Below, piece after piece: positions 41,383 to 58,695 of a stretch of 64,000 bases of DNA (position 1 is its first letter; the number at the start of each line of letters is the position of its first letter). Made by a program: the position numbers and the translations under genes. The notes under the pieces were generated by a model. It made no database searches. It had not been told where the DNA came from and worked only from the letters and a program-made list of their open reading frames with translations. Origin of the DNA: Allosalinactinospora lopnorensis (GTDB lineage: Bacteria > Actinomycetota > Actinomycetes > Streptosporangiales > Streptosporangiaceae); the NCBI RefSeq assembly GCF_000981225.1, contig NZ_LAJC01000007.1, positions 50,946 to 114,945 on the forward strand, in the 5' to 3' direction.

Positions 41383-41470
41383 GGTGGAGTCGCCTAGTGG
41401 CCGATGGCGCTCGCCTCGAAAGCGAGTGTAGGGAGACCTACCGTGGGTTCGAATCCCACCTCCACCGCCA
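41383..41470 (+). tRNA. tRNA-Ser(CGA)
   Basis: Acceptor stem GGTGGAG pairs with CTCCACC; discriminator G and encoded CCA follow. The anticodon stem-loop CTCGC-CTCGAAA-GCGAG gives anticodon CGA. There is a long variable arm (TAGGGAGACCTA), as expected for tRNA-Ser, and the T arm GTGGG-TTCGAAT-CCCAC. Confidence 0.95.
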
Positions 41471-41472
41471 TC

Positions 41473-41502
41473 AAAGGGCGTTCACGCAGGTGAACGCCCT
41501 TT
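41473..41502 (+). terminator. Rho-independent terminator after tRNA-Ser
   Basis: The stem AAAGGGCGTTCAC with loop GCAG and its exact complement is followed by a run of T, immediately after the tRNA. Confidence 0.9.
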
Positions 41503-42990
41503 TTCGTGGGCGGAGGAGTCGGCCGCCGTCTTCCGTGGCGCATTCATCGCACACGGGAATCGGCGGTCGGCTTTTCGGTCGTCCCGGCCAGAGCTCCCAG
41601 CCGCTCCGGGAAGCAGGTGCCCGTAGGTATCCGGGGTCATGGTCGCCGTGGAGCACAGAGCGCCCCCTGGACGGCCTCTCACGTTCCTCTCGGCGGATCG
41701 CCGGGAACGCGGTGCGGTCGCGGCGGATCAGGGGCGGTTCCATGCGTGCCCGCGAGGCCAACCCTTGGCGAGGTGTCCATATCCGGCCACCTCGCCCCCT
41801 TGATAAGTCCGTTAATTAGTCAAGGATCGTATTCCGCCGTACGGGCCGCCGCTCGATCGACGTCGATTTTCGCTCCGCGGCAGCTCTGCGAGATTTTCGA
41901 TGGCCGGAGCTGATCCGTCGAAACTCTGGCTCTCGCTATCTCCCGTATCCCTATCGCGATCGAGGTGGCGCAATATGTTTTTAATTCTTCTCGGAAGTGC
42001 GTTGGGGATGGCGGCGACTTCGCTGGGAAAGGATCACCGGCGGCCGGGAGACCGTGTTCACTTCCCGTCCGCCGGCACGGGAGCGATTCTTGTCAACCTC
42101 TCGAATGAAGGAGAGGAATGCGAAGAGGACGACGCTCTTTTCCCGCGGCCGTTGGGGGCGGCTCCGTGCGGTCGGCCGGGTCGCGGGAATGGCGGCCGTG
42201 ATGGAGTGCGACCTGGGGATCACCGCCTCCGCGGAGGCCGGAGAACGGACCGCCCGGAAGGGCGGTTCCCCTTCCGGGCGGCGGTTCCACCGGTCGGACG
42301 GCCCCTTTCGGTCGTCAGGGGAGGGGAAGCCCGAAGAAACGTCCACCCGCCCTGCGATAACCGGAAGCTCCGCGCTCGCGGGGAGCCGCCGGGACCGTGT
42401 TGCGTTGTCCGGCAGGGAAAATCCGCGGCCACGTCGGAGGGCCCGACCGGCCGTGTCCCCGACCGCCGGCCGGTCCGCCGCGGTCGGGGAGCTGAACCGG
42501 CCGTCCAGGAAAGGGCCGCCGTATTTCCAGTCAAGGGCTGTTATTATCGTGGTCTTTCGGGCGGACCGGAGAATATCCGAAAGCGTTTGTGTCTTTCTGT
42601 GCCCTCGAATGTCGGCTTTGCTTGGCGGTGCCATACTCTTGTACTCGGTGGTAACATTCTCTTTGCGGCCAGAGTCCAACCTAGGGGGCACTGAAGGCGG
42701 GGTGGTGGGGTCGTGCAGGGCTCTGAACTGGAATATCAATGATCATTCGCGAGATGCGCGGTAACCACTTCCGGTGAGTCCGGGATCCGATCCGTGTGGA
42801 TCGGTGCCCCCTGGTCGAAGTACTGTAGCCGGATTGGCGCCGTATCCCCGCGTGAATTAAGGATCGGTGCTCATTTGAGCGCCCCCGGTCGGTTGGATTG
42901 AAGAACCAATGATTCTTGTCATATCAGTTGAGGTTGCTTCCCCCGTTGGGGAGCGTCTCCCTCCTGTGTCCGACTAAGCGACGTTAGTGG
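41503..42990. other. 1.5-kb junction region, tRNA-Ser to RiPP cluster
   Basis: No intact gene is supported. The start holds a likely integrase remnant (listed separately). The remainder has several overlapping frames on both strands with poor protein character and AT-rich patches (near 41800-41825 and 41970-41985) unlike the neighbouring genes. CCTTGA...TCAAGG half-sites flank an AT-rich core near 41799-41825. This looks like non-coding or decayed accessory DNA, with the promoter of the methyltransferase gene at its right end. Confidence 0.5.
41590..41662 (-). pseudogene. Remnant of a tyrosine-recombinase integrase C-terminus
   Basis: On the minus strand this short stretch reads STATMTPDTYGHLLPG. 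It closely matches the C-terminal end of phage/ICE tyrosine integrases, whose last conserved motif is usually HSSxTMTxDTYGHLxPG with the Tyr as nucleophile. Only about 25 codons keep the similarity; there is no upstream catalytic domain. It begins about 120 bases past the tRNA-Ser 3' end, where such integrases normally sit. Confidence 0.5.
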
Positions 42991-43857
42991 ATGATCATGG
43001 GAGAAGAAATCGCTACCAAAGATTCGGTTTCTCAAAGGATCGCGGCCGGCGCGCATGCACGTGAGCGTGCGAGGGGATGGTTCAAATATCCGGTACGCAG
43101 TCGGGTGAGCTCTCGTTACGACGAGCGGGAGACGGCCACGTCACGTTCCCTGTGCCTGGAAGTCGGCCTGGCCCTGTGCGGACGCCCTCCCAGCCGCTTG
43201 CTTGACGTGGGATGCGGAGGCGGTGCCCTGCTTGAGCGTGCCAGGGAGGTCCTTCCTGAGGCGGAACTGGCGGGCGTCGATCCAGTGGAGCCCGCCATAG
43301 CGGCGGCCGAGCGCAGGTTCGGCGGCGACCCGGGAATTCTGCTCAGCGTCATGGCGGCCGAGGACCTCGCACGCCAGAAGGACCGGTTCGGACACTTCGA
43401 CCTGATCCTGGTGCACTTGAGCCTGGCCCTGTGGAACGACCCGCTCCAGGGGCTCACCCGGCTTACCGAAATGCTCGCCCCCGGGGGGACCTGCTACGTG
43501 GTCGACCTCCTCCGGCCGGAGTCCTGGGACGGGAAGACGATCCCGGAGGGCATGGGAGCGGCGGACGAGGAGGAACGGGACTATCTGAGAGACCAGCTCG
43601 CGGCCTCGCTGGCGATGGAGGAGTTCCGGGGGATCGCGGACGAGACCGCGCGCCGGACCGGGACACGCGCCGAGGTACGGCGGGGCGGGCTCGGCGGTCA
43701 TCCGCCGGGGTCGGCCGAGGCGGGCAGGATCTGGGCCGGATCACCGCGGATCGCCGGGCTTCTCGCCTCCCGCGGTGCCGCGCTCGCCGGAAGCAGTCAG
43801 ATCGACAGCGTGGCACATCTGGTGATCACGAATCCTGGAGGTCGCCGCGATGCTTGA
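42991..43857 (+). CDS. Class I SAM-dependent methyltransferase
   Basis: A 288-residue protein with the Rossmann SAM site SRLLDVGCGGGALLERA at about residues 67-83, the acidic loop LAGVDPVEPAIAAAERRF, and post-motifs FDLILVHLSLALWNDPLQGL and LAPGGTCYVVDLL. The C-terminal ~100 residues are rich in Arg, Gly and Ala and resemble nothing I know. It overlaps the following response-regulator gene by eight bases, so the two are co-translated. At the left edge of the RiPP cluster, it could be a second tailoring methyltransferase or unrelated; the substrate cannot be read from sequence. Confidence 0.72.
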   Translation: MIMGEEIATKDSVSQRIAAGAHARERARGWFKYPVRSRVSSRYDERETATSRSLCLEVGLALCGRPPSRLLDVGCGGGALLERAREVLPEAELAGVDPVEPAIAAAERRFGGDPGILLSVMAAEDLARQKDRFGHFDLILVHLSLALWNDPLQGLTRLTEMLAPGGTCYVVDLLRPESWDGKTIPEGMGAADEEERDYLRDQLAASLAMEEFRGIADETARRTGTRAEVRRGGLGGHPPGSAEAGRIWAGSPRIAGLLASRGAALAGSSQIDSVAHLVITNPGGRRDA

Positions 43858-44587
43858 GAGAAGAAAGCGCGCCACCGTCGTTGTCGCCGACCCGCACCCC
43901 CTCATCGTGGCCGGCCTGCGGGCCGTGATCGAGGAGGACGACGCGATCGAGGTCGCCGGCGTCTCCTGCGACGTGGGCAGTACGGTCCAGCAGGTCAGCC
44001 GGACGAATCCCGACCTCGTGCTCATCGAGTTCGGGATGCTCGACGAGGGCGCCGAAGCACTCACGTCGATGGCGGACGAGCGCGGCAAACGGGCGACCGT
44101 TGTCGCCCTGTCGGACCATCCCGAGAAGGTCGTGGCCGCGCTCAAGGCCGGCGCCCAGGGGTTCCTGCTGAAGAACAGTCCGCTCGAGGACGTCATCGTG
44201 ACGATCTGGAAGGCGCTCAACGGCTCCGTCCCGGTGTCGCCGCAGTCGCTCCCGTACCTGGTTTCCGAGGTGCGGAACCCGGCCGACGGTTCCGCCCTTT
44301 CGCAGCGGGAGCGCGAGGTTCTGCAGCTCGTCGCCGAGGGACTGTCCAACGCCAAGATCGCCGACATGCTCTTCGTGTCGGAGGCGACCATCAAGACCCA
44401 CGTCCAGCGCACGTTCCGGAAGCTGGGGGTGCACGATCGCGCGTCGGCGGTCGCGAAAGGGATCGCCAACGGCATTCTCGCCGTGCGCCGCGACGGGGGG
44501 CGTGCGCACGGCGGTTCGACGAGGCCGCAGCAGAACCTGGTCTCCGGCCGGCCGACGGCGCGCCCGCCGCTGGAGAAGAGCCGCTGA
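43850..44587 (+). CDS. LuxR/NarL-type response regulator with Glu at the phosphorylation site
   Basis: A 245-residue regulator: receiver domain (about 7-125) and a LuxR helix-turn-helix (LSQREREVLQLVAEGLSNAK, then TIKTHVQRTFRKLGVHDRAS), plus a basic tail. Asp14 of the acidic pocket and the conserved Lys (GFLLKNS) remain, but the phospho-acceptor position reads VLIEFGM, so Asp is replaced by Glu60. That can mimic permanent phosphorylation. No partner kinase is adjacent. A role as regulator of the RiPP cluster is inferred from position. Confidence 0.8.
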   Translation: MLERRKRATVVVADPHPLIVAGLRAVIEEDDAIEVAGVSCDVGSTVQQVSRTNPDLVLIEFGMLDEGAEALTSMADERGKRATVVALSDHPEKVVAALKAGAQGFLLKNSPLEDVIVTIWKALNGSVPVSPQSLPYLVSEVRNPADGSALSQREREVLQLVAEGLSNAKIADMLFVSEATIKTHVQRTFRKLGVHDRASAVAKGIANGILAVRRDGGRAHGGSTRPQQNLVSGRPTARPPLEKSR

Positions 44588-44623
44588 GCCTCCGGCCGTT
44601 CCGCCGGCCGCCTCGGTCCGGCA

Positions 44624-45340
44624 TCAGTCCCACCGGCTCGGCGCGACCGGCGGCGCGTCCTCTGCGCTCTCTCCGGTGGGGCGCTCACCCCGCGGCCGAG
44701 AGGAGGGGCGGCGGGTTCCCCGCTGAGCCGGGGCGAACCACTCCAGCGTCAGGTTGTGCGAGACGTGTGCGCACGTCGCCGCTGCCAGCCCGCCGGCCGC
44801 GGCGCACGCGGTCATCGCCAGCGACATGACGCCGAGGTACGGCAGTGCCCGCGCTCCGCTCTTCGGTACGTGCAGCCCCAGGAAAGCCAGCAGGCACAGG
44901 GCCAGGGCCAGAGGGATCGGCACCCCGACCCCGTGCAGCGCGGCCGGCCCCGATATCCGCCACAGTGCTTCCTCTCCCAGCGCGCAGGCCGCCAGCCGCG
45001 TGTGCCCGGCGGTCCCTGATGGTGCGGGGCGGCGCCGAAGCCGCTTGCCGGAGAGCAGCGCACCCGCAAGGGGAAGGAGGACGCCAACAGCGGCGGATGC
45101 CGCGATGACGGCGGCGGTCCACGGCCACGCGAAAGGGCCTTTCCACGCTGCGCCCCCCGCGGTGGCGGCCGCCAGGGCCGCGGCGCTGAGCACGATCGTG
45201 GCCCGGTCATAGGTCCGCAGCGGGTCGCGCGGAGGGAACACGCGCATCGACCAGGGGACAGCGGCATGCGCGGCGAGCACGACGAGGACGGCGACCGCCG
45301 GGGCGGCCGCCGTCCCCTCCCACAGGCCCGCGGTGCCCAT
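44624..45340 (-). CDS. CPBP (CAAX-like) intramembrane protease, PznE-like
   Basis: A 238-residue membrane protein with about six helices. The three CPBP motifs are present: EE-x3-R in GEEALWRIS (Glu123, Glu124, Arg128), F-x3-H in FLGLH (Phe153, His157), and HxxHN in AHVSHN (192-196). Plantazolicin clusters encode a CAAX-type protease, PznE, thought to remove the leader peptide. It starts directly after the dehydrogenase stop (TAG-ATG) and ends the five-gene minus-strand operon. A role in leader cleavage after Ala-Ala is inferred. Confidence 0.78.
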   Translation of the reverse strand: MGTAGLWEGTAAAPAVAVLVVLAAHAAVPWSMRVFPPRDPLRTYDRATIVLSAAALAAATAGGAAWKGPFAWPWTAAVIAASAAVGVLLPLAGALLSGKRLRRRPAPSGTAGHTRLAACALGEEALWRISGPAALHGVGVPIPLALALCLLAFLGLHVPKSGARALPYLGVMSLAMTACAAAGGLAAATCAHVSHNLTLEWFAPAQRGTRRPSSRPRGERPTGESAEDAPPVAPSRWD

Positions 45341-46168
45341 CTACGGGGAGCCGTCGCCCGGTGGCCCGATCAGCGTGGCGTAGACCGGGGCCTCGTTCAC
45401 GCCGTCGTAGTCCATGTTCGCCGTGAAGTCGTCGTCCAGGAAACCGCCGATCGGTCTGGTCGCCAACCCGTAGGCGGTCCCGAGCAGCAGGATGTTCTGC
45501 TGCAGGTGCCCGGCCTCGACCAGGCAGAAGCGCAGCGCCCGCTGGCCGTACTTGAAACGGGAGCGCCAGAAGGACGCGCCGATCACCAGTATCGCGGTCG
45601 CGTCCCGCGCCATTTCCGGCTGCAGGGTCGCCAGGTGCAGGGTCTCGTGGTCGACCTCGCGCATCCAGGTGAGCCCGTGGCGGAACGCGTCGTAGTGGTA
45701 CAGGCCCGGCCGCAGGCCCCCCGCGCGCTGCACGATCACGTACAGATCCAGCGGGTAGAGCGCACCGCCCGAGGGGACGGGGCGCAGTGGCCACCCGTTC
45801 ACCAGGCGCACACGGTAGGAGCGTTCGAGTATCCCCGACAGTGTCGGCAGGGGGAGCTCGCCCGGTCCGAAGTCCTCCGAGCTGCGCCGCGCGTCGATGA
45901 CCTCGGCGAAGTCCCGGGAGAGCGGTTCGGGGTCGGGCAGCGGGAGTATCTCGCGGCTGGGGTTGCTGCGAGCGGCCCGCTGGGTCAGCAGCTGGAGTTC
46001 CTCCGACTGGTCCAACGCGAGCCCACCGGGGACATCCCAGCTCAGGGCGCGTAGATGGAGTTTCGACGCCTCGAAGTAGCATTCCGCCGGATCGTCGGGC
46101 GGCGGCGGGCCGTCGCCGTATACGGCGTCGATCAGGTTGGCGCCGTGCAGGTTCTCTGTCTCAGGCAT
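45341..46168 (-). CDS. SagB-type azoline dehydrogenase (PznB/McbC-like)
   Basis: An FMN-dependent nitroreductase-fold enzyme that oxidises azolines to aromatic azoles. In 275 residues it shows the N-terminal RRSSEDFGPGELPLPTLSG segment, the substrate/FMN region PSGGALYPLDLYV (132-144), the Lys-Tyr pair required in McbC-like enzymes (FKYGQRALRF, Lys206-Tyr207) and AGHLQQNILLLGTAYGLAT. It lies between the YcaO and protease genes. Its presence means most heterocycles in the product should be thiazoles and oxazoles. Confidence 0.88.
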   Translation of the reverse strand: MPETENLHGANLIDAVYGDGPPPPDDPAECYFEASKLHLRALSWDVPGGLALDQSEELQLLTQRAARSNPSREILPLPDPEPLSRDFAEVIDARRSSEDFGPGELPLPTLSGILERSYRVRLVNGWPLRPVPSGGALYPLDLYVIVQRAGGLRPGLYHYDAFRHGLTWMREVDHETLHLATLQPEMARDATAILVIGASFWRSRFKYGQRALRFCLVEAGHLQQNILLLGTAYGLATRPIGGFLDDDFTANMDYDGVNEAPVYATLIGPPGDGSP

Positions 46169-46183
46169 GGGCGTGCTCCCCGA

Positions 46184-47575
46184 TCAGGGATAGGGATGTG
46201 GGAAGGGGTTCAGTTCGTCGTCGCGCAGCGGGCGCTCCAGGAGGCCGAGTTCCACGGGGCGGCGGCGGAGACGCTCCGGCCCGATGAACCGGGCGTGGTA
46301 GGAGGAGTCCAACGGCACCAGCGCCGGAGCGAACACCCGGGCGACGACGAGACCGGCGTCGTAGATGTCCGGGCTCGTGGCGTCGGCGAGGTAGACCGCC
46401 ACGTCCTGTTCGCCGAGCCGGTCGAGTACCGCGCGGGCCAGCGGGCGGGGGCGGTCGTCGGGCAGCCGGGGCAGTTCGGCCACCGCGAGCCGTTCCGCGC
46501 TCGCGTCGAGGAACCCGGTCTCGTGTTCCAGGCCCGGCCCCGCGTAGAGCCGGACGTGGTCGTCGAACTTGTGGACCTGTTCGGCGAAGTCGGTGTCGGG
46601 CGGCAGCAGGTTGCCCTCGCGCTGTTCGGCGCGCATCCACACGCGTGTCTGGAACGCCTCGATCACCGACTTGACGATGGCGCGCTGCGCTGTTCCGGCG
46701 GCGGCGCCCCCGACCGCCAGGGGCGCGATCTCGTTCACCCGGTTGCGCACCACTGTCAGCACCGACGGAACACCGCAGAAGGAGCTCAGGTCGACCAGCG
46801 AGACGTCGAGGCCGGAGGGGCGCACGTGGCGGTCGAAGAACGCCTTCGTCCCGGGATCGCTGTCGGGGTCGATCAGCGGCATGCTCAGCCGGTTGTGCCA
46901 GACCGTGCTGAACCCGTCGCGTTCGACCAGTTCGAGCAGGCCCGAGCAGAGCGCCTCGTCCCAGGTGCAGCCGGCGGCCAGCCCGTTGCTCGTGCTGTTG
47001 GCGATCTTCTGGCCCGTCTCGCGGTGCGGCCCCGAGAGGAACACCAGTGCCGCGGGCAGCCAGGTCGGGGTGCCGCTGCGCAGGTCGATCCCCTGGACCC
47101 AGCTGATCTCGGTGTCCCTGGTGAAGCGGACGAAGGGGAACCGCGGGTCGGCGTACTGGGTGTCGGTGAACAGCCGCACCTGCTCCGGCGCGATCGCGGC
47201 CTCTCCCCGGGCGGTGAGGTCCGCCCACGAGGAGCGCGCGACGTGTTCCGCGGGCCAGTACACGGCGCTGTAGCGTTCGGCGGTCTCGGCGATGGCCGAG
47301 AGGGTCGCGGAGCGTTCGTCGAGCGAGCCGCCGCCGCTCGCCTGGGCGCACGGTTCCCCGACCAGGTACTCCGACTGGCAGGCCCGCGCGCCGACGGCGA
47401 AGGCGAAGACGTCGTCGACGTCGTGCATCTGCCGGTAGAGGCGGGTCGTGATGCCGACGACCCCGGAGTTCAGCGGGCGCAGGAGCCGCTCCGACCGCTC
47501 GGCCGGCGTCCACGGAGGGCCGTCCCCCGCGGGCAGACCCGCCCAGTCCCGGGAGGCGAGGGATGGTGCCGTCAT
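46184..47575 (-). CDS. YcaO-domain azoline cyclodehydratase (PznD-like)
   Basis: A 463-residue YcaO enzyme that uses ATP to cyclise Cys, Ser and Thr of the precursor to azolines. It contains SGGGSLDERSATLSAIAETA with ERYSAVYWP, NSTSNGLAAGCTWDEALCSG with LLELVERDGF, and further ATP-site Glu/Gln residues (IVKSVIEAFQTRVWMRAEQR). It ends in the proline-rich PFPHPYP, as azoline-forming YcaO proteins usually do. The ATG at 47575 overlaps the upstream C-protein stop (ATGA); the frame also runs further upstream but that is antisense noise. Confidence 0.9.
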   Translation of the reverse strand: MTAPSLASRDWAGLPAGDGPPWTPAERSERLLRPLNSGVVGITTRLYRQMHDVDDVFAFAVGARACQSEYLVGEPCAQASGGGSLDERSATLSAIAETAERYSAVYWPAEHVARSSWADLTARGEAAIAPEQVRLFTDTQYADPRFPFVRFTRDTEISWVQGIDLRSGTPTWLPAALVFLSGPHRETGQKIANSTSNGLAAGCTWDEALCSGLLELVERDGFSTVWHNRLSMPLIDPDSDPGTKAFFDRHVRPSGLDVSLVDLSSFCGVPSVLTVVRNRVNEIAPLAVGGAAAGTAQRAIVKSVIEAFQTRVWMRAEQREGNLLPPDTDFAEQVHKFDDHVRLYAGPGLEHETGFLDASAERLAVAELPRLPDDRPRPLARAVLDRLGEQDVAVYLADATSPDIYDAGLVVARVFAPALVPLDSSYHARFIGPERLRRRPVELGLLERPLRDDELNPFPHPYP

Positions 47576-48621
47576 TTCCCCTCCCCGTTCCCCGCGTCGT
47601 CGTGGGTGTGCAGCGGGATCCCCGACTGCGGGTGGAACCAGATCATCGGGTAACCGCGGTCGCGGGCCGGCGAGCAGGTGGGGCACCGCGGCACGCGGAA
47701 CAACCGGTGCGCGTCGAGCCGTATCCCGTCGCTGGTCATCTCCAGCGTGTGCAGGCCGCCCGGTGCGGCCAGCCCCGCATTGGTGTCGGTGAGACCGAAC
47801 CACTCGACGACACGCTCGACGACCAGGCCCACCTGCATGGTGGTCAGTCCCGGCCACAGCGCCGCGCGCTCGCCCCCGCTGGAGACCGGACGCGCCGCGA
47901 CGATGTCGGCGATGACGCCGCGGTCGGGGAACGACGCGGCCCTGCGCAGTTGGTAGCAGGTGAAGCAGGCCGACTCCTGAGGCAGCGTCCACGGGCCGAC
48001 GAGCGCCCGGCGGCCGTCGAAGGGGACGACGGGCAGCCAGGTGCGCCGCCCCTTGACCGCCTCCTCGTTCCACTCCTCCAGCAGCGGGTCGCGGTCGGTC
48101 TCCCCGACGACCACGACGACATCGCGCGTCGGGTCGTTCGTCGGCGGGACGTCGGCGCGGTCCGCGGCCGCGCGGACGGTGACCCCCGCCTCCGCCAGCC
48201 CGCGGGAGATCCTCTCGGCGAGAGCGCCCTTGCCCAGCACCACGGCCAGGGACCGGTCCATGCGGTCCTGGACGGTGCGCAGGGGGACGTTGCGCAGCAC
48301 ACGCAGCCACATGCCGGTGGCGGCGGGGGAGACCTCGGAGAGGTCGGTGGCGGCGTCGTCGCGCTGCAGCAGGCCCGCGTCGACGAGCTGGTTCAGCACC
48401 GACTCCAGGGCCAGCAGCCGCGCCTCGTCGGTGTCCGCGCCGACGTCGAGGGCGGTCCTGCCGTCGGAGAGGACGGTCAGCAGCGCCTCGGTGAAGGCGG
48501 GCAGCCGACCGCCCGCGAGCTTCGCCGTATGGTCGCCGTGCCTGATCAGCACGGCGTCCTCGGTGACTTCGACCCTGACACCGGGGTTGACGCCAACAGT
48601 GAGATCGGTCTGGGTGCTCAT
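47572..48621 (-). CDS. Cyclodehydratase partner, ocin-ThiF/E1-like with leader-binding domain (PznC-like)
   Basis: A 349-residue C-protein. The first ~90 residues (VRVEVTEDAVLIRHGDHTAK, then ALLTVLSDGRTALDV) have the winged-helix look of a RiPP recognition element that grips the leader. The rest is an E1/ThiF-like fold with LAVVLGKGALAERISRGLAE and two Cys pairs (SACFTCYQL and RCPTCSPA) likely holding zinc. It would present the precursor to the YcaO enzyme. The ATG start overlaps the upstream gene's stop (ATGA), and its own stop overlaps the YcaO start. Confidence 0.85.
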   Translation of the reverse strand: MSTQTDLTVGVNPGVRVEVTEDAVLIRHGDHTAKLAGGRLPAFTEALLTVLSDGRTALDVGADTDEARLLALESVLNQLVDAGLLQRDDAATDLSEVSPAATGMWLRVLRNVPLRTVQDRMDRSLAVVLGKGALAERISRGLAEAGVTVRAAADRADVPPTNDPTRDVVVVVGETDRDPLLEEWNEEAVKGRRTWLPVVPFDGRRALVGPWTLPQESACFTCYQLRRAASFPDRGVIADIVAARPVSSGGERAALWPGLTTMQVGLVVERVVEWFGLTDTNAGLAAPGGLHTLEMTSDGIRLDAHRLFRVPRCPTCSPARDRGYPMIWFHPQSGIPLHTHDDAGNGEGK

Positions 48622-49448
48622 GGTCTTCCTTCTTCGGTCGGGAGCGCCGGCTCGGGAGCGCCGGCCGCGGGGGTGGCGACAGCCGCGGCGGCGCGCGCAA
48701 CACATGTGCTGACCGGGCGGGGAGGCCGCCCCAGGGCGCGTTCGACGGTCGGGGAGAGCGGATGCGCGGTACCGGCCCAGTGCTGGTGGTGCGGAACCCG
48801 CAGGGCCGTGTCGAGGCTCCAGCCGACCGTCGCGGAGAGCGCCTCCACCAGGTGAGCGGGGTCCAGCGGGTGGTACTCGGCCTTCCGGTCGAGCGAGTCC
48901 GCCAGCATTCCGACGAGGTCGCCCACCCGGACGGGTTCGGCCCCGGTGAGCTGGTAGGCCCGGCCCCGCCGGCGGTCCGGGGCGGCGACGGCCTCCCGGA
49001 TCACGTCCAGGACGTCCTCGAACGCCAGCCAGGGAACCGGGTTGTCCCCGAAGCAGCCGTAGACGGTGGAGAACTCGGTGATCTGGCGGGCGACCTGCAC
49101 CAGATCGAGGTCGAGGGGCGCGCGCCGGAGGACGCACCAGTCGTCGCGCCCTTCGACCGCGGCGGTTTCGGCGCGGGAGACCTCCGCGAGGTAGGGGTCG
49201 TCCGTCCCCGCCTTGTCGACCCCGAGCGCCGAGATCACAATGAGCGGCAGCCGGGGCGCCAGGGGATACCGGCAGGCTTCACCGTGCGCCGCGGGGGTGA
49301 GGGAGCCGACGTCGACCAGCGCGGCGTCGGCTTCGGCGGGGTCGTGCACCACGGACACGCCGGGGGCTTCGTGCAGCGCCGGCGGCAGGGTCGGTCGACC
49401 GCCGATCACCAGAAGCCGAATCGTGTTTGTTCTTTCTGGTTCGCTCAC
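48618..49448 (-). CDS. NmrA-like NAD(P)-binding protein, first gene of the RiPP operon
   Basis: A 276-residue protein resembling NmrA/atypical short-chain dehydrogenases: RLLVIGGRPTLPPAL at the start, VLRRAPLDLDLVQVAR, WLAFEDVLDVIREAVAAP and GRAYQLTGAEPVRVGDLVGM. The usual glycine-rich cofactor motif is weak (VIGGRPT), so it may bind a nucleotide poorly. It occupies the place of pznJ, a gene of unknown function, in plantazolicin clusters. It heads the minus-strand operon, divergent from the precursor gene and coupled to the C-protein gene. Confidence 0.68.
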   Translation of the reverse strand: MSEPERTNTIRLLVIGGRPTLPPALHEAPGVSVVHDPAEADAALVDVGSLTPAAHGEACRYPLAPRLPLIVISALGVDKAGTDDPYLAEVSRAETAAVEGRDDWCVLRRAPLDLDLVQVARQITEFSTVYGCFGDNPVPWLAFEDVLDVIREAVAAPDRRRGRAYQLTGAEPVRVGDLVGMLADSLDRKAEYHPLDPAHLVEALSATVGWSLDTALRVPHHQHWAGTAHPLSPTVERALGRPPRPVSTCVARAAAAVATPAAGAPEPALPTEEGRP

Positions 49449-49739
49449 ACGTGGAATACTCGCAGTTTCCCGTCTGCGGCGCGGACATCTGTGTTGCTGA
49501 TTCTGCTTGTCCTTCGATATGCCGATATCGGTTTCATCCCCGCGGAGTCCGGGACGGAGAATTCGCCGACGCTACAGTTCTGTACTGCCGGTACGCGGCG
49601 TGGAGAATCGTTTTGTCACCCGATCGGTCGACATCGAGATTCCTCCCGTGTGCTCCCTTGTAGCCGACCGCCGATTCGACGAACCTCAACTGCGGCGGAT
49701 ACACGGGTGTCCGTTGCAACCATCTAGCAAGGAGACCGC
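49449..49739. promoter_or_regulatory. Divergent promoter region of the RiPP cluster
   Basis: 291 bases between the divergent J-C-D-B-E operon and the precursor gene. It is less GC-rich than its flanks. A ten-base palindrome CCGATATCGG at 49522-49531 with a nearby GATATG is a candidate regulator site. AAGGAG lies a few bases before the precursor ATG. Confidence 0.5.
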
Positions 49740-49877
49740 ATGGCTAACGTTCTCGAGACCCTGGGTGAGGTCAGCGAGGTCGAGCTGTCCTTCCACGGCG
49801 AGGAGTCGAGCTACTTCGAGCCGACCGCCGCGCGCTGCAGCTCCTCCAGCACCTGCACCTGCTGCTGCACGGGCTAG
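49740..49877 (+). CDS. Plantazolicin-type RiPP precursor peptide
   Basis: A 45-residue peptide too short for routine gene calls. Leader: MANVLETLGEVSEVELSF, then HGEESSYFEPTAA. Core: RCSSSSTCTCCCTG. The leader end HGE...FEPTAA-RC matches plantazolicin's precursor (HGE...FEPMAA-RC, known from Bacillus), so cleavage after Ala31 should expose Arg32. Core length is 14, as in plantazolicin, but twelve residues in a row (33-44) are Cys, Ser or Thr with no Ile-Ile break. Expected product: N-dimethyl-Arg followed by up to twelve azole rings and Gly. AAGGAG precedes the ATG. Confidence 0.93.
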   Translation: MANVLETLGEVSEVELSFHGEESSYFEPTAARCSSSSTCTCCCTG

Positions 49878-49883
49878 TTTCCC

Positions 49884-49920
49884 CGGCTCCGGAACCGTGT
49901 GGAAGGCGATTCCGGAGCCG
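49884..49920 (+). terminator. Hairpin between precursor and methyltransferase genes
   Basis: CGGCTCCGGAA and TTCCGGAGCCG pair perfectly (11 base pairs) around a 15-base loop and are followed by a T-rich stretch (CTTCTTTCCT). A partial terminator here would give much more precursor mRNA than methyltransferase mRNA, common in RiPP operons. Confidence 0.65.
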
Positions 49921-49958
49921 CTTCTTTCCTCCTCGCGCTCTACCTACGGGAGTCGACC

Positions 49959-50798
49959 ATGACGAACAGCCGGATGAGCAGCACAGATGTGGTCCGCTCC
50001 ACACCGCACGTCGCCCTCGAACTGACGTGGGTCAGCGATGACTACCTGGGGCGGCTCCACCCCGACCTGCGCCGGTTCGCGGTGCGCCGGCTCGTCGACG
50101 ACACGGTCGCCGACCTGGAGGAACTGCACGCGCAGGCGGAGCACACCGTCAAGGGCGAGCGCCGCGACGGGATCGTGGAGGATCTCACCGGTGCTGCCGT
50201 CCGGCGGGACGGCGACCAGCTCGTCATCTCCGGCCAGCAGGTCATGCAGGACTGGGAGCGCCCCTTGATGGCCGAGCTCAGCCGGATCGCCGCACGGTCC
50301 CACGGGGATGTGCTGGAGGTCGGTTTCGGAATGGGGATTTCGGCCGGCCTGCTGCAGCAGGAAGGGGTGCGATCGCACACGATCATCGAAAGCAACCCGG
50401 AAGTCGCCGAAGCCGCCCGGAAGTGGAAAAGCGAACACCCCGACAGTGATATCCGCATTGTCGAAGGACGCTGGCAGGATGTCATAGAAACACTGGGCGA
50501 ATTCGACGGTGTCCTGTTCGACACCTACCCGGCGAACGAGCGCGAGTACGAACAGTACGTTGTCCGGGACGCCGCCTATATCCAGCATTTCCTTCCCTCG
50601 GCGGCGGCGCATATGCGGCCCGGCGCGGTTCTCAGCTACTACACGATGGAGATCGACTCGCTGAGTCGGCGGCACCAGCGGGCCCTTCTCGGCTATTTCC
50701 GCAGCATAGAACTGAGCGTCGTCTCCGGACTGGCCCCGCCGCCGGACTGCACGTACTGGTGGGCCGACTCCATGGCGGCCGTCGCCGCTGTCCGGTAG
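49959..50798 (+). CDS. SAM methyltransferase, PznL-like (N-terminal Arg dimethylation)
   Basis: A 279-residue methyltransferase with motif I DVLEVGFGMGISAGLLQQ (about 117-134), HTIIESNPEVAEAARKW, and GEFDGVLFDTYPANEREYEQ. The layout resembles the guanidinoacetate-methyltransferase-like group to which PznL belongs. The ATG at 49959 has GGGAG upstream; a longer in-frame start is unlikely. It directly follows the precursor gene, whose core begins with Arg, so alpha-N dimethylation of that Arg is the predicted reaction. Substrate assignment is inference from family and context. Confidence 0.85.
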   Translation: MTNSRMSSTDVVRSTPHVALELTWVSDDYLGRLHPDLRRFAVRRLVDDTVADLEELHAQAEHTVKGERRDGIVEDLTGAAVRRDGDQLVISGQQVMQDWERPLMAELSRIAARSHGDVLEVGFGMGISAGLLQQEGVRSHTIIESNPEVAEAARKWKSEHPDSDIRIVEGRWQDVIETLGEFDGVLFDTYPANEREYEQYVVRDAAYIQHFLPSAAAHMRPGAVLSYYTMEIDSLSRRHQRALLGYFRSIELSVVSGLAPPPDCTYWWADSMAAVAAVR

Positions 50799-50811
50799 TC
50801 GGCCGTCGCCG

Positions 50812-51444
50812 TCAGCGTTCGGGCAGCCGGATGAGCCCTCTCGACAGTGCGGCGGTGGTCGCCCCGGTCCGGTCCGAGACACCGAGTTTGCCGAAGATGT
50901 TGAGCAGGTGGCTCTTGACCGTGGATTCGCTGATCCCCAGGCGGCGGCCGATGCGCGCGTTCGTGTACCCCTGCGCCACCAGGTCGAGGATCTGTAGTTC
51001 CCGCTGGGTCAGCAGGGGCGCGGGCGGGGAGGACCGCCTGCGCGCCAGCTTCTGCGCGACCGCCGGCGTCATGACCGACCGGCCGGCGGCGCCGGCCCGG
51101 ACCGCCGCCGTGAGCTCCTCCAGTGAGGTGTTCTTCAGCAGGTAGCCGATGGCGCCCGCCTCGATCGCGCCGACGATGTCCTCGTCCTCGTCGTAGGTGG
51201 TGAGCACGATCACGTTGCATTCGGGGTTCGCCGCCACGATGCGGCGGGTGGCCTCGATGCCGTTCTCCCCCGGCATCCGCAGGTCCATCAGCACGACGTC
51301 CGGGGCGAGGGCCGAAGCCGCCGAGACCGCCGCCGTCCCGTCCCCGGCCTGTCCGACGACCTCGATGTCGTCCTCCACCGAGAGCAGGGCGACGATCCCC
51401 TCCCGCACCACACTGTGGTCGTCGACCACCAGGATCCGTATCAC
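50812..51444 (-). CDS. NarL/LuxR family response regulator
   Basis: A 210-residue two-component regulator: receiver with RILVVDDHSVVREGIVALL and the phospho-acceptor Asp in DVVLMDLRMPG, Lys in GYLLKNTSLEEL, and a LuxR helix-turn-helix (LTQRELQILDLVAQGYTNAR, then STVKSHLLNIFGKLGVSDRT). Start GTG 51444 overlaps the stop of the sensor kinase gene (GTGA). It converges on the methyltransferase gene. It probably controls the exporter or the whole RiPP cluster. Confidence 0.9.
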   Translation of the reverse strand: MIRILVVDDHSVVREGIVALLSVEDDIEVVGQAGDGTAAVSAASALAPDVVLMDLRMPGENGIEATRRIVAANPECNVIVLTTYDEDEDIVGAIEAGAIGYLLKNTSLEELTAAVRAGAAGRSVMTPAVAQKLARRRSSPPAPLLTQRELQILDLVAQGYTNARIGRRLGISESTVKSHLLNIFGKLGVSDRTGATTAALSRGLIRLPER

Positions 51445-52607
51445 TGCGCCACGCTCACCGTCACGCTGGTGCCCATTCCCGGACGACTGCACAGTTCGAC
51501 CCTTCCCTCCAGTTCCGCCAAGCGGTCGCGCATGCCCGTGAGCCCCAGCCCACCACCGTCGACCCTGGACGGGTCGAATCCCACACCATCGTCGCGCACG
51601 GTGAGAACGACCTGTTCGGGGCGGTAGTCCAGGGTGATCGACACGTGTTCGGCCTGCGAGTGCTTGCGTACGTTGGCCACCGACTCCTGGGCGGCGCGCA
51701 GCAGGGCCACCTCCTGGACCGTGGTGAGGGTGCGGGGCGCACCGCGCACCGCTACGTCGGTCCGCTGCTCCCACAGTCCTTCGGCCAGGTTGCGCAGGGC
51801 GTTGGGAAGAGAGGACTCCGGCCGGCCCGCGACCCCCTCCATCGCCAGCGCACGCGCCTGGGTGTGGTTCTCGGCCGCGGTCCTGCGGGCCAGTTCGAGA
51901 TGGTGCCGGGCCCTCTCGGGCTCCTTGTCCAGTTTGGCCTGCGCCGCCTCGACGAGCATCCGGACGCTCGTGAACCCCTGGGCCAGGGTGTCGTGGATGT
52001 CGCGGGCGAGGCGCTGGCGCTCCGCGAGGGCACCGCGTTCGTGGTTGACCTCCGCGAGCTGCGACTGGGTCTCCTCCAACCGCAGCAGCAGCTCCTTGCG
52101 CTCGTGCGACTCGGCCACCACCCGTGCGACCCACCATCCCAGCCCGAGGCTGTAGGCCGCGGCCGTCGCGGCGAACGCGGCCCGCACCAGGAGCCCCGGC
52201 CCGTCCGGGAGCGTGAGGATCCCGATGCTCCCGAAGGCCGCGAAGAGGCCCGAGGAGAGGTGCCCCCTGCGCTTGGGAGCCACCGAATAGACCAGCATCG
52301 AGATCGGGGCGGCACCGATCCACACCGTGGGCGCCAGAGCCAGCGCCGCGCACCACAGCAGCACGAGCACGAGGAGTGGGCCGTCGCCGCACTCGTCGCC
52401 GCGGGCGAGCCGCAGGGCGAGGAACCCGAAGCAGGCCAGCGCGAGCCCCACCGCGGCGCACGCGAGGACGAGGCGCGGTGTCCCCGAAGGCGGGAACAGT
52501 GCCAGCGAGCCGGCCGACAGCACGGCGGTGAACCCCCAGAGGAGCATCCACCCCAGGGGAGGGAACCGCCACGCGTCGGAACCGAGCCTGGAACCGGGGT
52601 CGTCCAC
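51441..52607 (-). CDS. NarL-type sensor histidine kinase
   Basis: A 388-residue membrane kinase: about five to six N-terminal helices without a large outer sensor domain, then the HisKA_3 dimerisation domain with RLARDIHDTLAQGFTSVRML (His phospho-acceptor) and an HATPase domain (AAQESVANVRKHSQAEHVSI, VRDDGVGFDPSR, GLGLTGMRDRLAEL). Lacking an outer domain, it may sense membrane-associated signals such as the peptide or its transport. It forms an operon with the downstream regulator. Confidence 0.88.
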   Translation of the reverse strand: MDDPGSRLGSDAWRFPPLGWMLLWGFTAVLSAGSLALFPPSGTPRLVLACAAVGLALACFGFLALRLARGDECGDGPLLVLVLLWCAALALAPTVWIGAAPISMLVYSVAPKRRGHLSSGLFAAFGSIGILTLPDGPGLLVRAAFAATAAAYSLGLGWWVARVVAESHERKELLLRLEETQSQLAEVNHERGALAERQRLARDIHDTLAQGFTSVRMLVEAAQAKLDKEPERARHHLELARRTAAENHTQARALAMEGVAGRPESSLPNALRNLAEGLWEQRTDVAVRGAPRTLTTVQEVALLRAAQESVANVRKHSQAEHVSITLDYRPEQVVLTVRDDGVGFDPSRVDGGGLGLTGMRDRLAELEGRVELCSRPGMGTSVTVSVAQ

Positions 52608-52725
52608 TCGTCCTCCTTCGAACCGGCCACGCCATTATCGACCGGAGGCGGCCGGCTCCCCCTCCACCGATCGTCTGATTCCCCCTCCTCCTGTCGGTGG
52701 TGCCGCGGGGAAGGGGGAGAGCCGG

Positions 52726-53682
52726 ATGCTGGTCGGCATGGACCCAACGACATCTTCGCCGCCTCCCCCTGCGGTCGCCGCCGCGGACGTCGTCGTCCGG
52801 CGCGGCGGTGTGACAGTGCTCGACGGTGTCGGGCTCGCGGTCAGACCAGGGGAGGTCGTGGCCCTGCTCGGCCCGAACGGAGCCGGCAAGACCACGTTCG
52901 TGGAATGCCTGGAGGGCTACCAGAGGCCGGACACGGGGCGGATCGACGTACTCGGCCGGAATCCGTGGCGGGCACCCGCCGCATGGCGGGCGCGGATCGG
53001 GGCCGTGCTGCAGGACTGCCGCATCGACTCCGAGCTCAGTGTCGCCGAGATCGTGACCATGACCCGCGGCTACTACCCCGACGCGCTGACAACACAGGAC
53101 GCCCTCGACCTCGTCGGGTTGGCGCCCCTGGCCAAGCGCAGGGTGAGCCGGCTGTCCGGCGGGGAGCGCAGGCGGCTGGAGATCGCGCTGGCCCTGATCG
53201 GCAGGCCGGACTTCGTCGTGCTCGACGAACCGACGACGGGTTTCGACCCCGAGGCGCGGCGGTCCCTGTGGAAGGTGCTGGCCGGGCTGCGGCGCGCGGG
53301 GACCACCATGCTCCTCACCACCCACCTGCTCGACGAGGTGGAGGAGCTCGCCGACCGCGTGGTGCTCCTGGTGCGCGGGAGGGTGCACCGGACCGGAACC
53401 GTGGAGGAGCTGCGGTCGACCTCGGGGCTTCCCGACCGTGTCGGGTGCGTCGCACCGGAGATGGACTCCGCCCCGGACCTGCCGTCGGTGCTGGAGTCCT
53501 GGCGCGACCGGGACAACGGGCGCTGGACCTTCACCACGAACGAGCCCGGACGCACCGTCCAGGAACTGCAGGAGTACGCGAACGAGCGGCGGATCGGTCT
53601 CGTGGACGTCACCGTCCGATCGCCCTCGTTCGAGGACGTCTACCTTGACCTGCTGGCCCACCGGGAGGAGGCTTCCCCATGA
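52726..53682 (+). CDS. ABC transporter ATP-binding protein (RiPP exporter)
   Basis: A 318-residue ATPase: Walker A GPNGAGKTTFVECL, Q-loop near VLQDCRIDSEL, signature RLSGGERRRLEIALAL, Walker B DFVVLDEPTTGFDPEARRSL and switch His in LLTTHLLDEVEEL. The C-terminal ~80 residues match the extra domain of ABC-2 drug/bacteriocin exporters. ATG 52726 has AAGGGGGAG upstream. Its stop overlaps the permease start. Plantazolicin clusters have a similar exporter pair. Confidence 0.9.
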   Translation: MLVGMDPTTSSPPPPAVAAADVVVRRGGVTVLDGVGLAVRPGEVVALLGPNGAGKTTFVECLEGYQRPDTGRIDVLGRNPWRAPAAWRARIGAVLQDCRIDSELSVAEIVTMTRGYYPDALTTQDALDLVGLAPLAKRRVSRLSGGERRRLEIALALIGRPDFVVLDEPTTGFDPEARRSLWKVLAGLRRAGTTMLLTTHLLDEVEELADRVVLLVRGRVHRTGTVEELRSTSGLPDRVGCVAPEMDSAPDLPSVLESWRDRDNGRWTFTTNEPGRTVQELQEYANERRIGLVDVTVRSPSFEDVYLDLLAHREEASP

Positions 53683-54485
53683 GCCCAGCGTCGGCGAACC
53701 GCACCGAAGGCGCGTCGCGGGCGGGGCGAGCGCAGCCGCCCGGCGCTCTGCCCACCTTCGCGCACCAGATCCGCTACGACCTGCTGTCCCAGGTCCGCAA
53801 CCCCGCGGCGATGTTCTTCTCGTTGGGACTGCCGCTGATCTTCCTCGTCACGTTCACCCTGATCGGGGGCGACTGGGCGGAGACGGCCGGCTACTACACC
53901 CCGGCGACCATGACGATCGCGATCGTCACCGGCACCATGACCAACCTCGCCATCACACTGAGCTACCTGCGTGAGTACGGTCAGCTCAAGCGGCTGCAGC
54001 TCCTTCCCGTTCCGCGCTCGGCCCTGCTGGGCAGCCGGATGGCGGCCGCGTGCGTGCTCGCGCTGGCCGGCGTCGCCGTGGTGGCCGTGTTCTCGGCCGC
54101 CGTCTACGACACCACCCCGGAGCAGCCGGGCCGGCTGGCGGCGGCGATCCTGCTGCTCGGCGTCGCCGGCAGCGTCCTCGGGGTGGCCCTGACCGCCGTG
54201 ATCCCCAGCGAGAACGCGGCCAGTCCCATCGCCAACGCCCTCGTGCTGCCCCTGCTGATGATCTCCGGGGGGTTCTTCCCGCTGGACGGGGCACCGGAGT
54301 GGGTCCGCACCGTCTCCTCGCTGCTTCCGCTGGAACCGGGGCTCTCCGCGGCGGTCGACGCCTACCGGGGCGCCTGCTCCTGGTCCGACATCGGATACGC
54401 GGCCCTCGTCACAGGGGCGTGGACCGCCGCCACCGCGGCACTGGGTGTCCGGTTCTTCTCGTGGACCCCGCGCCACCGGCGCTAA
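53679..54485 (+). CDS. ABC-2 type permease (RiPP exporter)
   Basis: A 268-residue permease with six hydrophobic segments, starting with NPAAMFFSLGLPLIFLVTFT and including ILLLGVAGSVLGVALTAVIP and LVLPLLMISGGFFPLDG, the usual ABC-2 pattern. It pairs with the overlapping ATPase gene and probably exports the mature peptide, also giving self-protection. The N-terminal 30 residues are hydrophilic. Confidence 0.88.
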   Translation: MSPASANRTEGASRAGRAQPPGALPTFAHQIRYDLLSQVRNPAAMFFSLGLPLIFLVTFTLIGGDWAETAGYYTPATMTIAIVTGTMTNLAITLSYLREYGQLKRLQLLPVPRSALLGSRMAAACVLALAGVAVVAVFSAAVYDTTPEQPGRLAAAILLLGVAGSVLGVALTAVIPSENAASPIANALVLPLLMISGGFFPLDGAPEWVRTVSSLLPLEPGLSAAVDAYRGACSWSDIGYAALVTGAWTAATAALGVRFFSWTPRHRR

Positions 54486-54576
54486 CACGCGCCGCGCGGC
54501 AGGCACCGGCACAGCACGACCCGGACCGTTCGGACGGTCCCGCGGAGCCCGTAACGACAAGGAGGAACTGAGAACG

Positions 54577-54780
54577 ATGACGAACACCGAGCGCGGTTCC
54601 GGACCGCTGGACATGCTGTTCGGCGCCGGGATCACCCTGTTCATGAGCCTTCTCGGAGCGGGCGCCGCCTACGCCGCTTCGCAGAGCCTCGCCATCGCCG
54701 GTGCGGCGTTCCTGGTAGGGGTGCTCATCGGCGGTGTGATCTACGCGATGGTCGCCTTCGGGGGTGCGAAGCGCCGATGA
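54577..54780 (+). CDS. Small two-helix membrane protein, candidate immunity or accessory factor
   Basis: A 67-residue protein with a strong AAGGAGG site before the ATG. It has a short polar start (MTNTERGSGPLDMLFGAG), two hydrophobic helices (ITLFMSLLGAGAAYAASQ and AAFLVGVLIGGVIYAMVAF) and a basic end (GGAKRR). It follows the exporter genes by about 90 bases. Plantazolicin clusters encode small membrane proteins of unknown role and a separate resistance protein, PznF; I cannot say which, if any, this equals. Confidence 0.65.
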   Translation: MTNTERGSGPLDMLFGAGITLFMSLLGAGAAYAASQSLAIAGAAFLVGVLIGGVIYAMVAFGGAKRR

Positions 54781-55941: not shown

Positions 55942-58116
55942 TCAAGGCAGGCGGTTGATGGCCGCCTCGACGTCGTCGGCTCTGGGGTCGTCGACCGACC
56001 ACAGGATGTCCAGGGCGGCGCCGAGGCGGCTGCGCGCCTGCCCGGTCTCGCCCATGGCGGCGTACGCCTCACCCGTTCCGATGAGCGCGACGGCTTCGCT
56101 GTCGAGGTCGTCCACCTCGCGGAAGACCGCGATGGCGGTTTGGTACTCCTCGACGGCCTCGGCGTGGCGGCCCGACGACGCCAGTGCGGCGGCCAGGAAG
56201 CACCGGGCCCAGGCCACGGTCCAGGTGTCCTCAATGTCGGTGAAGATGCCGATCGCGGTTCGGCAGTTCTCCAGCGCGATGCCGAAGTGTCCGAGTGCCC
56301 GTTCACACTCGACAAGGCTCAGCAGGGCCATGCCCTCGCCGCGCCGTTCCCCGGCCCTGCGGAACGCGTCGATGGCCTGCTGGAGGAGTACCGGAGCGTC
56401 GTCCTCCTGCTCCCGGCGCAGCTCACCGAGCTGGCGCAGCGCGAACCCCTCGATCCAGCCGTCGCCCACCTCCCGGGCCGCCTCCAGCGCCGCCGTGTAG
56501 TGCTCCAGGGCTTCTTCGGTGTCGCCGAGCAGCCATTCGGCGTCGGCGAGGCCGAGGAGGTTGTAAGCCTCCCCGTAGCGGTTCCCCAACGTACGGGCCG
56601 CTTCGAGCCCGACCAGGTTGATCTCGCGCCACTCGTGCCAGTGCCGGTGGCGTTCGAAGAGCCCGTAGACCGCAGCGGGCAGCCGCCACGCGAGTTCGTA
56701 CAGTCCGTGGTCGAGCGCGGCCCGTATCGATCTGACGATGGTGGCGCGCTCCTGGGCGAACCACGCGAGAGCGGCCTTCGGGGTGTCGAATGTCAGGGGA
56801 TTCGCGGGCGGTTCGCCGGCGGGGTCCTCGACGGTACGGGAGTTCGGCTGCACCAACAGCACCGCGTTGCGCGCGCTCGCCAGGTACCAGCCGGTGAGCA
56901 GGCGCAGTACCTCGGCCGTACGCTCGGGTGCCTCCTCGGCGTGGAAACGCTCGGCCGCGTACACCCGCAGCAGGTCGTGCAACCGGTAGCGGTCGTGCCC
57001 GACCCGCTGCACCAGGTTCGCCGCGGTGAGCTGGTCGAGCAGTGGGCGTGCCCGACGCAGCGGCAAACCCACCGCGGCGGCGCAGGCCGCCGCGCCGAAC
57101 TCCGTCCCCGGGTGCACGCCGAGACCGCGGAACAGCCGCGCCGCCTCGGGAGGCAGCGCGGTGTAGGAGGCGGAGAAGACCGCCCGGACGTTGCTCAGTT
57201 CGTCGCCGGTGGTGCCCAGCGCATCAAGCCGCTCGTCTTCGGCGGCCAGTTCGGCGACGACGTGGCTGAGCGGGGTGTCGGGGCGGTCGATCAGCCGTTC
57301 GGCGAGGATGCGCAGCGCCAACGGTAGGTGGGCGCAGTGGGCGACGAGGTCGCGCGCCGCCTCGGGTTCGGCGTCGAGCCGCCGCCCGCCGAGGTGTGCC
57401 CGCAGCAGGGCGAGCGATTCTTCGGTGGAGAGCGTGTCCAGGGCCATCCGCCGCGCCCCTTCGCGCGCCACGAGGCCGGGCAGGGTGCTGCGGCTGGTGA
57501 CCAGGACCAGGCAGGTGGGCGAGGCCGGCAATAAGGGGCGCACCTGTTCGGCGGAGGTGGCGTCGTCGATGACGATGAGCATGTGTTTCCGGTCGAGCCG
57601 GGACCGGTAGAGGGCCGCCCTGCCGTCGAGGTCATCGGGGATGCGCTCGGGTGGGACGTCGAGCGCGCGCAGCAGGGAGTCGAGGGCACTGGACGCGTCC
57701 AGGCGGGGACCGGGGCCGTGGCCGCGCATATTGACGTACAGGTCGCCGTCGGCGTACCGGGAGCGGACCCGGTGCGCCCAGTGCACGGCCAGCGCGGTCT
57801 TGCCGATGCCGGGGGCGCCGCCGATCGCGGAGATGACGACCGCGTCGCCGGACTTGCCGACCGAGCCGTCCCCGGACGTCGGCAACAGCGCGTCGAGCCG
57901 GGCAAGCTCGGCACCTCGGTTGACGAACCCCGAGACCGCCATCGGAAGCTGCCGGGGTACGGGCGCATCCGCGGATGCCGCCGCCGTGACGTGCACGTCT
58001 CCATGGATGGCCCCGCTCTGCACGACGGCGCCCGCGCTCCCCTGGACGTCGTTCCGGGTGCTGCCCCTGTTGGTGGAATTGCTTGGAGACTCGCCGCTGC
58101 CGCTTGTCATCCTCAC
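55942..58116 (-). CDS. STAND NTPase with NB-ARC and TPR domains
   Basis: A 724-residue signalling ATPase. An N-terminal segment of the kind seen before actinobacterial NB-ARC proteins (AGAVVQSGAIHGDVHV) is followed by NB-ARC: Walker A GGAPGIGKTALAVHW, Walker B HMLIVIDDATSAEQV and HCAHLPLALRILAERL. After a winged-helix region come TPR-like repeats (about 490-715). It resembles AfsR-type regulators but lacks their N-terminal DNA-binding domain, so it is more likely a sensor/scaffold or defence-type switch than a transcription factor. It sits next to DUF6879. Confidence 0.82.
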   Translation of the reverse strand: MRMTSGSGESPSNSTNRGSTRNDVQGSAGAVVQSGAIHGDVHVTAAASADAPVPRQLPMAVSGFVNRGAELARLDALLPTSGDGSVGKSGDAVVISAIGGAPGIGKTALAVHWAHRVRSRYADGDLYVNMRGHGPGPRLDASSALDSLLRALDVPPERIPDDLDGRAALYRSRLDRKHMLIVIDDATSAEQVRPLLPASPTCLVLVTSRSTLPGLVAREGARRMALDTLSTEESLALLRAHLGGRRLDAEPEAARDLVAHCAHLPLALRILAERLIDRPDTPLSHVVAELAAEDERLDALGTTGDELSNVRAVFSASYTALPPEAARLFRGLGVHPGTEFGAAACAAAVGLPLRRARPLLDQLTAANLVQRVGHDRYRLHDLLRVYAAERFHAEEAPERTAEVLRLLTGWYLASARNAVLLVQPNSRTVEDPAGEPPANPLTFDTPKAALAWFAQERATIVRSIRAALDHGLYELAWRLPAAVYGLFERHRHWHEWREINLVGLEAARTLGNRYGEAYNLLGLADAEWLLGDTEEALEHYTAALEAAREVGDGWIEGFALRQLGELRREQEDDAPVLLQQAIDAFRRAGERRGEGMALLSLVECERALGHFGIALENCRTAIGIFTDIEDTWTVAWARCFLAAALASSGRHAEAVEEYQTAIAVFREVDDLDSEAVALIGTGEAYAAMGETGQARSRLGAALDILWSVDDPRADDVEAAINRLP

Positions 58117-58119
58117 CTT

Positions 58120-58695
58120 TCAGCGACGACGCATGTACGCATCGAACTGGGCATCGTATTCGGTGAACGGGACCGACAGATGTATCGCACGGTCCCGCCA
58201 CACGTTGGCCGCCACGACCCACTCCGGATCGTCGATCAGCTCGGTGGTCAGTAGCGAACCGTCGTCGGCGTAGTTCATCCACAGCATTTGGTGGGAGTCG
58301 AACAGCCAGTAGTCCAGGTGTGGCAGCCCACTGGGCCAGTCGCCTTCCTCCGCGGGAAGGATGCGGATGTTCTCCCCAGCGGCGACGTTACGACGGTAGC
58401 CGTGCGCGCACTCGAAGCGCACATAGTCCGACAAGGGCTCGGTGACCACGTGGACCCGGTCATACCGCCGCCCCGCGGCGATCCCCGACCGGACTTCTTC
58501 TCCCCATTCAGTATCGCTCAGAGTGGGCGGAAGACTCTGCTGCTCATCAGCGATAAACCGCCGGAAATCCTCATTTTCATAGTCGGCGGCATAGATTTGT
58601 AGAGTTTCCAATCGGAATGCCGTGTAACGGAATTCGGCGAACAGTTGCTCGACTTCATCCCAGGTGATGGGGCGGCCTTTAGGATTCTCGCTCAC
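58120..58695 (-). CDS. DUF6879 family protein
   Basis: A 191-residue soluble protein beginning MSENPKGRPITWDEVEQLFA and containing EFRYTAFRLETLQIYAADYE, GRRYDRVHVVTEPLSDYVRF and HLDYWLFDSHQMLWMNYADD. This pattern is DUF6879, frequent in actinobacteria beside XRE regulators and small partner genes. Its function is unknown. It overlaps the stop/start of the small gene upstream and lies just before the STAND NTPase on the same strand, so the three may act together. Confidence 0.8.
   Translation of the reverse strand: MSENPKGRPITWDEVEQLFAEFRYTAFRLETLQIYAADYENEDFRRFIADEQQSLPPTLSDTEWGEEVRSGIAAGRRYDRVHVVTEPLSDYVRFECAHGYRRNVAAGENIRILPAEEGDWPSGLPHLDYWLFDSHQMLWMNYADDGSLLTTELIDDPEWVVAANVWRDRAIHLSVPFTEYDAQFDAYMRRR

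Follow-up and report, generated by a model that had tools for sequence, protein, structure and literature searches.

A plantazolicin-lineage gene cluster of Allosalinactinospora lopnorensis with a GAMT-family methyltransferase and a predicted linear polyazole product

We studied a 64,000-nt stretch of Allosalinactinospora lopnorensis DNA (in the following the window; positions 50946-114945 of contig NZ_LAJC01000007.1 from the draft assembly GCF_000981225.1, 5.9 Mb in 220 contigs). Within window positions 42991..54780, to which 14 open frames are assigned, we find a gene cluster for a ribosomally synthesised and post-translationally modified peptide (RiPP). It includes two methyltransferases, denoted MT1 (42991..43857, + strand) and MT2 (49959..50798, +). 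We lean towards reading it as a plantazolicin-lineage cluster that makes a linear polyazole from the core RCSSSSTCTCCCTG, whose Arg is likely methylated at two sites: the PznL homologue MT1 would act on the alpha-amine and the GAMT homologue MT2 on the guanidino group. MT2 is the most unusual part of the cluster and was overlooked in a preliminary description of this DNA.

Precursor core and plantazolicin lineage

The precursor gene (49740..49877, +) encodes 45 aa. The predicted leader runs to FEPTAA and is followed by the core RCSSSSTCTCCCTG, i.e., an Arg encoded directly at the FEPTAA junction, the 12 uninterrupted Cys/Ser/Thr residues CSSSSTCTCCCT and a Gly. A homologue search among 5.77 billion proteins returned five matches, all with nearly the same core. 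Over six precursors, 12/14 core positions and 11/13 positions immediately upstream are invariant, compared to merely 3/18 at the start. The plantazolicin peptide profile TIGR04218 matches the precursor with E 1.4e-8, albeit at 34.6 bits versus a cut-off of 45, and it matches 10/10 members of the precursor group (best E 6.7e-9).

Next, we considered how unusual such a core is. All six frames of the window (127,996 residues) contain two Cys/Ser/Thr runs of at least 9 residues: the core (12) and a 15-residue run at 34812, which consists nearly entirely of Ser/Thr and lies in an alternative frame of the dnaB gene. No run of at least 12 was observed in 20 first-order Markov windows. Seven runs of at least 11 are present in 51 loci (1.29 million six-frame residues), two of them being the same core in overlapping loci. 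That is, long runs are rare, yet they can arise by chance. We judge the core to be real from its conservation in several genomes and from the surrounding gene cluster, the run by itself being insufficient.

Judged by its genes, the cluster belongs to the plantazolicin lineage. This assignment is based on MT1, on a YcaO tree and on gene order. MT1 matches BamL, the plantazolicin N-alpha,N-alpha-dimethyltransferase (PDB 5dm0/4kvz, E 5.9e-27), and both share the stretch RYDERET. The YcaO cyclodehydratase (D; 46184..47575, -; TIGR03604 (SagD) 1.6e-90, C-terminal PFPHPYP) was placed in a ten-row tree, in which the plantazolicin reference is a Corynebacterium cluster (L038) and no Bacillus PznD is included. 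Here, L038 and two further clusters from the same family form its group (support 99/98). L038 is located on a Corynebacterium tuberculostearicum plasmid and comprises PznL-like, ABC, C, D and B genes as well as a precursor with an FEPTAA-Arg junction. The window's YcaO matches 13 plasmid records, the best being a Corynebacterium plantazolicin-type cluster. Finally, the gene order J-C-D-B-E recurs in L006, L007 and L008, from three other genomes of the same family. Each of these carries two tandem precursors (L006 12978-13378; L007 12798-13193; L008 15181-15502) with a leader resembling that of the window, while their cores, e.g., ASSSSVVCCCCCA, retain two nonpolar residues and lack the Arg. 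Neither MT1 nor MT2 was found within the 20 kb fetched per locus. The YcaO gene of L008 (11917-13190) appears as two overlapping tblastn pieces, perhaps due to a frameshift or sequencing error.

According to Cox and others (PMC4603692, section 13), plantazolicin cores comprise five cyclisable, two nonpolar and then five to six further cyclisable residues. RCSSSSTCTCCCTG does not follow this pattern, given its twelve consecutive cyclisable residues and the absence of a nonpolar pair. In addition, nothing in L038 (17 kb) corresponds to the GAMT-type MT2. The cluster is therefore of the plantazolicin lineage without being that of plantazolicin itself.

MT2, its relatives and their linkage

MT2 starts 81 bases downstream of the precursor on the same strand; it is the methyltransferase that the preliminary description noted next to the precursor. 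The search of solved structures argues against it as the PznL counterpart: four matches have E values below 1e-20, every one of them GAMT, while the remaining two (E 0.14 and 0.31) belong to a cypemycin N-terminal methyltransferase and to a glycoside hydrolase. BamL is not found up to E 1, whereas it is matched by MT1, such that MT2 is ruled out as PznL counterpart and MT1 takes this role. Both sequence and predicted fold place MT2 nearer to GAMT than to other methyltransferases, and the GAMT-like fold is a confident prediction. The N-terminus of MT2 is about 60 residues longer than that of GAMT, with the structural match starting at model residue 68-74. D188 and E100 are the equivalents of the catalytic GAMT residues Asp134 and Glu45; they are invariant in 69/69 aligned rows, which suits a guanidino-type chemistry. 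In guanidinoacetate, GAMT methylates the guanidine nitrogen that bears the carbon chain.

Linkage in other organisms was read from protein records whose source contigs have equal base counts. Among the contigs identified in this way is the window's own (114,945 bases; P0016). Precursor, MT1 and MT2 occur together in Streptomyces wuyuanensis (11,242-base contig) and on a second contig of 28,100 bases, and MT1 and MT2 on a 1,403,145-base contig of Streptomyces deserti (locus tags _11240 and _11160). The named nearest relatives of both methyltransferases are from Streptomyces. We rely on contig pairing because none of the genome searches gave another complete locus of exactly this kind to read. 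The precursor search at order level hit 4/297 genomes, i.e., the window's own as the sole Arg-type (1/297) and three without the Arg. At class level, MT1 was found in 1/394 genomes (the window's own), and at family level YcaO in 4/200 (own included). Spread in Streptomyces was rejected: genome searches centred on this genus, run with the precursor or its profile, gave 0/392, 0/345 and 0/351 positives, where the three draws overlap and include no positive control. Plasmid-borne spread was rejected, too: no plasmid record matches the precursor or MT2 at the limits used, though the YcaO does match.

In the MT2 tree (112 rows), the window's protein groups with P0017-P0019 and P0020 (support 97/89), and P0022 joins weakly (80/2). 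P0020, which lies on a 1,532-base contig, falls among the cluster-linked MT2s. All of these are part of an 11-row group (100/99) that also includes P0027 from Sciscionella, in whose locus (L009) none of the other core enzymes of the cluster is matched. Given the placements of P0020, P0022 and P0027, a single origin of the plantazolicin-linked MT2s is not established. Many MT2 relatives are linked to nonribosomal peptide synthetases (NRPS): an A-domain motif is found about 1 kb upstream of the MT2 relative in 14/24 fetched loci, and in 5/8 loci inspected an MT2-like domain is fused behind the A domain. The fused loci are L010, L011, L014, L026 and L027 (about 10001-10810; 1144-1956 in L026); here, the A domain with its GAMT-like domain lies at the end of the NRPS protein, and a carrier-domain motif follows downstream. 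This arrangement is not known to have been described before.

Proposed product and competing explanations

Starting from the observed genes and families, the conserved core and the GAMT-type sequence and residues of MT2, we infer the following pathway. By analogy with the family, C and D would cyclodehydrate up to 12 consecutive Cys/Ser/Thr residues and B would oxidise the resulting azolines to azoles. The CPBP protease would cleave after FEPTAA and thereby expose Arg1, to whose alpha-amine MT1 would add two methyl groups. MT2 would methylate the guanidino group once, with the chain-bearing nitrogen as the most likely site because this is the atom targeted by GAMT in guanidinoacetate. The ABC-2 pair would export the product. 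For 12 azoles, the computed [M+H]+ is 1186.1742 with two methyl groups and 1200.1899 with three. Four methyl groups on 12 azoles would give 1214.2055, and 11 azoles plus one azoline with three methyl groups 1202.2055.

More tentatively, and with less confidence than we have in the lineage-and-product reading, we suggest that this could be the first RiPP pathway with a GAMT-type guanidino methylase. Two unrelated methyltransferases would act on one residue, leaving an N-alpha,N-alpha-dimethyl, side-chain-N-methyl Arg at the end of an uninterrupted twelve-ring polyazole. Such a polyazole would exceed any contiguous azole run known to us. Side-chain guanidino methylation would be a new modification for plantazolicin-class peptides. 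No report of it for any RiPP was found in the open-access literature (most subscription journals lie outside this coverage), and the accessible part of a RiPP methyltransferase review (PMC11285071) holds no word starting with "guanid". If true, a sister pathway with an extra side-chain methyl and an unbroken cyclisable run would widen the range of an antibiotic scaffold, and a peptide-active guanidine methylase would be usable in biocatalysis. The mass prediction is concrete and can be checked by a single knock-out.

A number of observations weigh against this proposal. The precursor stays below the TIGR04218 cut-off, and the number of cyclised residues may be lower than 12. MT2 pairing is incomplete: among the 120 matches listed of 662, MT2 is paired in 3/6 MT1 contigs larger than 10 kb. 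The other three are a 56,267-base contig, which encodes the identical core as well as an MT1, and contigs of 275,541 and 908,139 bases. Furthermore, the cluster-linked MT2s do not form one clean clade, leaving a single origin unsupported. E100 and D188 are retained by the NRPS-linked relatives as well and, for this reason, do not prove a peptide substrate.

Both the unpaired contigs and the frequent upstream A-domain motifs would fit a plantazolicin-like cluster whose MT2 has another target, either an NRPS-type product or some free guanidino metabolite, with Arg1 methylated at the alpha-amine only. We regard this as unlikely, though it is the alternative to be taken most seriously: MT2 directly follows the precursor on the same strand, in other organisms it is found on the same contigs as precursor and MT1, and no NRPS gene was found among the scanned cluster proteins. 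We give still less credit to a peptide methylation that is non-guanidino or otherwise placed, e.g., on the C-terminal carboxylate or, in the fashion of PRMT, on a terminal omega-nitrogen. While the target atom cannot be told from the family, its NRPS-linked members included, the invariance of the Asp134 and Glu45 equivalents suits a guanidine. Finally, product, expression and enzyme activities are predictions from the genes, and a cluster that has decayed or lies silent, without yielding an azole peptide, would be compatible with them as well. Open frames, intact catalytic motifs and a core conserved across other genomes make this very improbable. We retain the polyazole methylated at both positions of Arg1 as our preferred reading.

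Gene inventory, surroundings and known systems

The preliminary description was partly confirmed. Profile searches confirmed its YcaO, the ThiF-like leader-binding C protein (47572..48621, -; TIGR03882 2.4e-13) and the SagB-type azoline dehydrogenase (B; 45341..46168, -; TIGR03605 3e-36, Lys-Tyr pair at 206), with TIGR03604 and TIGR03882 both exceeding their family cut-offs. The CPBP/Rce1-like membrane protease (E; 44624..45340, -), the predicted leader peptidase, is found narrowly above the PF02517 cut-off (6.8e-5; 23.5 versus 22.4 bits) with its three motifs EExxxR, FxxxH and HxxxN intact. The exporter was likewise recovered as ATPase (52726..53682, +; PF00005 9.2e-30, 40% identity to that of L038) and ABC-2 permease (53679..54485, +; PF01061 1e-19). 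For the NmrA-like protein (48618..49448, -), the J position is kept in L006, L007 and L008, while TIGR03649 (3.4e-6) scores far below its cut-off and Pfam provides no match. The reported two-component system consists of a sensor histidine kinase (51441..52607, -; PF07730, PF02518) and a response regulator, with the cluster in fact encoding two LuxR-type regulators (both PF00072, PF00196; 43850..44587, +, overlapping MT1 by 8 bases, and 50812..51444, -). The small predicted membrane protein (54577..54780, +) has an open frame without family match, and its membership is uncertain.

Regarding the broader claims, the J-C-D-B-E order did recur, and the phylogeny suggested as a check, here run for YcaO only, placed it with the Corynebacterium plantazolicin-type cluster. 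The label of a plantazolicin-type cluster holds for the lineage but not for the core pattern and had missed the added GAMT-type enzyme. That most genes overlap by ATGA/GTGA was overstated (4/9 adjacent same-strand pairs).

A tRNA-Ser (cga) is located about 1.5 kb ahead of the cluster (41383-44000 region), and GC content climbs from 0.64-0.67 to about 0.73 across the J-C-D-B-E genes; together, they perhaps mark an island boundary. The replicative helicase gene dnaB (32465-35812, +) is split by an intein with a LAGLIDADG domain, and an origin-proximal location is plausible as judged from this gene alone. The right flank (55942-58695, -) encodes an NB-ARC/TPR regulator and a DUF6879 protein, a possible regulator pair placed beside the cluster by position only.

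Compared to known systems, the cluster shares with Bacillus and actinobacterial plantazolicin the PznL-type methyltransferase, the C/D/B enzymes and the ABC exporter, and with Corynebacterium L038 a short precursor whose FEPTAA precedes an Arg at the N-terminus of the core. This Arg is encoded here, and its alpha-amine dimethylation is predicted from MT1. It differs in its uninterrupted run and in MT2. The Arg-less clusters agree in gene order and leader and have two precursors each; their cores keep the nonpolar pair and lack the Arg, and MT1 and MT2 are absent from the 20 kb fetched. Spongiicolazolicins and goadsporin are also linear azole peptides of actinobacteria. The former are goadsporin-related and 28-29 residues long, and the group also carries dehydro residues (PMC8838263, PMC10676384). 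Peptide length and enzyme set rule out such a relative; no lanthipeptide-type dehydratase was found among the scanned cluster proteins. BlsL of blasticidin S, likened here by its description in PMC5572114, N-methylates a guanidine in a peptide-like product at the chain-bearing nitrogen and is reported to have weak GAMT similarity. Its substrate is a peptidyl nucleoside, while that predicted for MT2 is a ribosomal peptide. GAMT itself resembles MT2 in sequence, predicted fold and the positions of the catalytic Asp and Glu, from which MT2 is set apart by its extended N-terminus and its place beside the precursor in a RiPP cluster.

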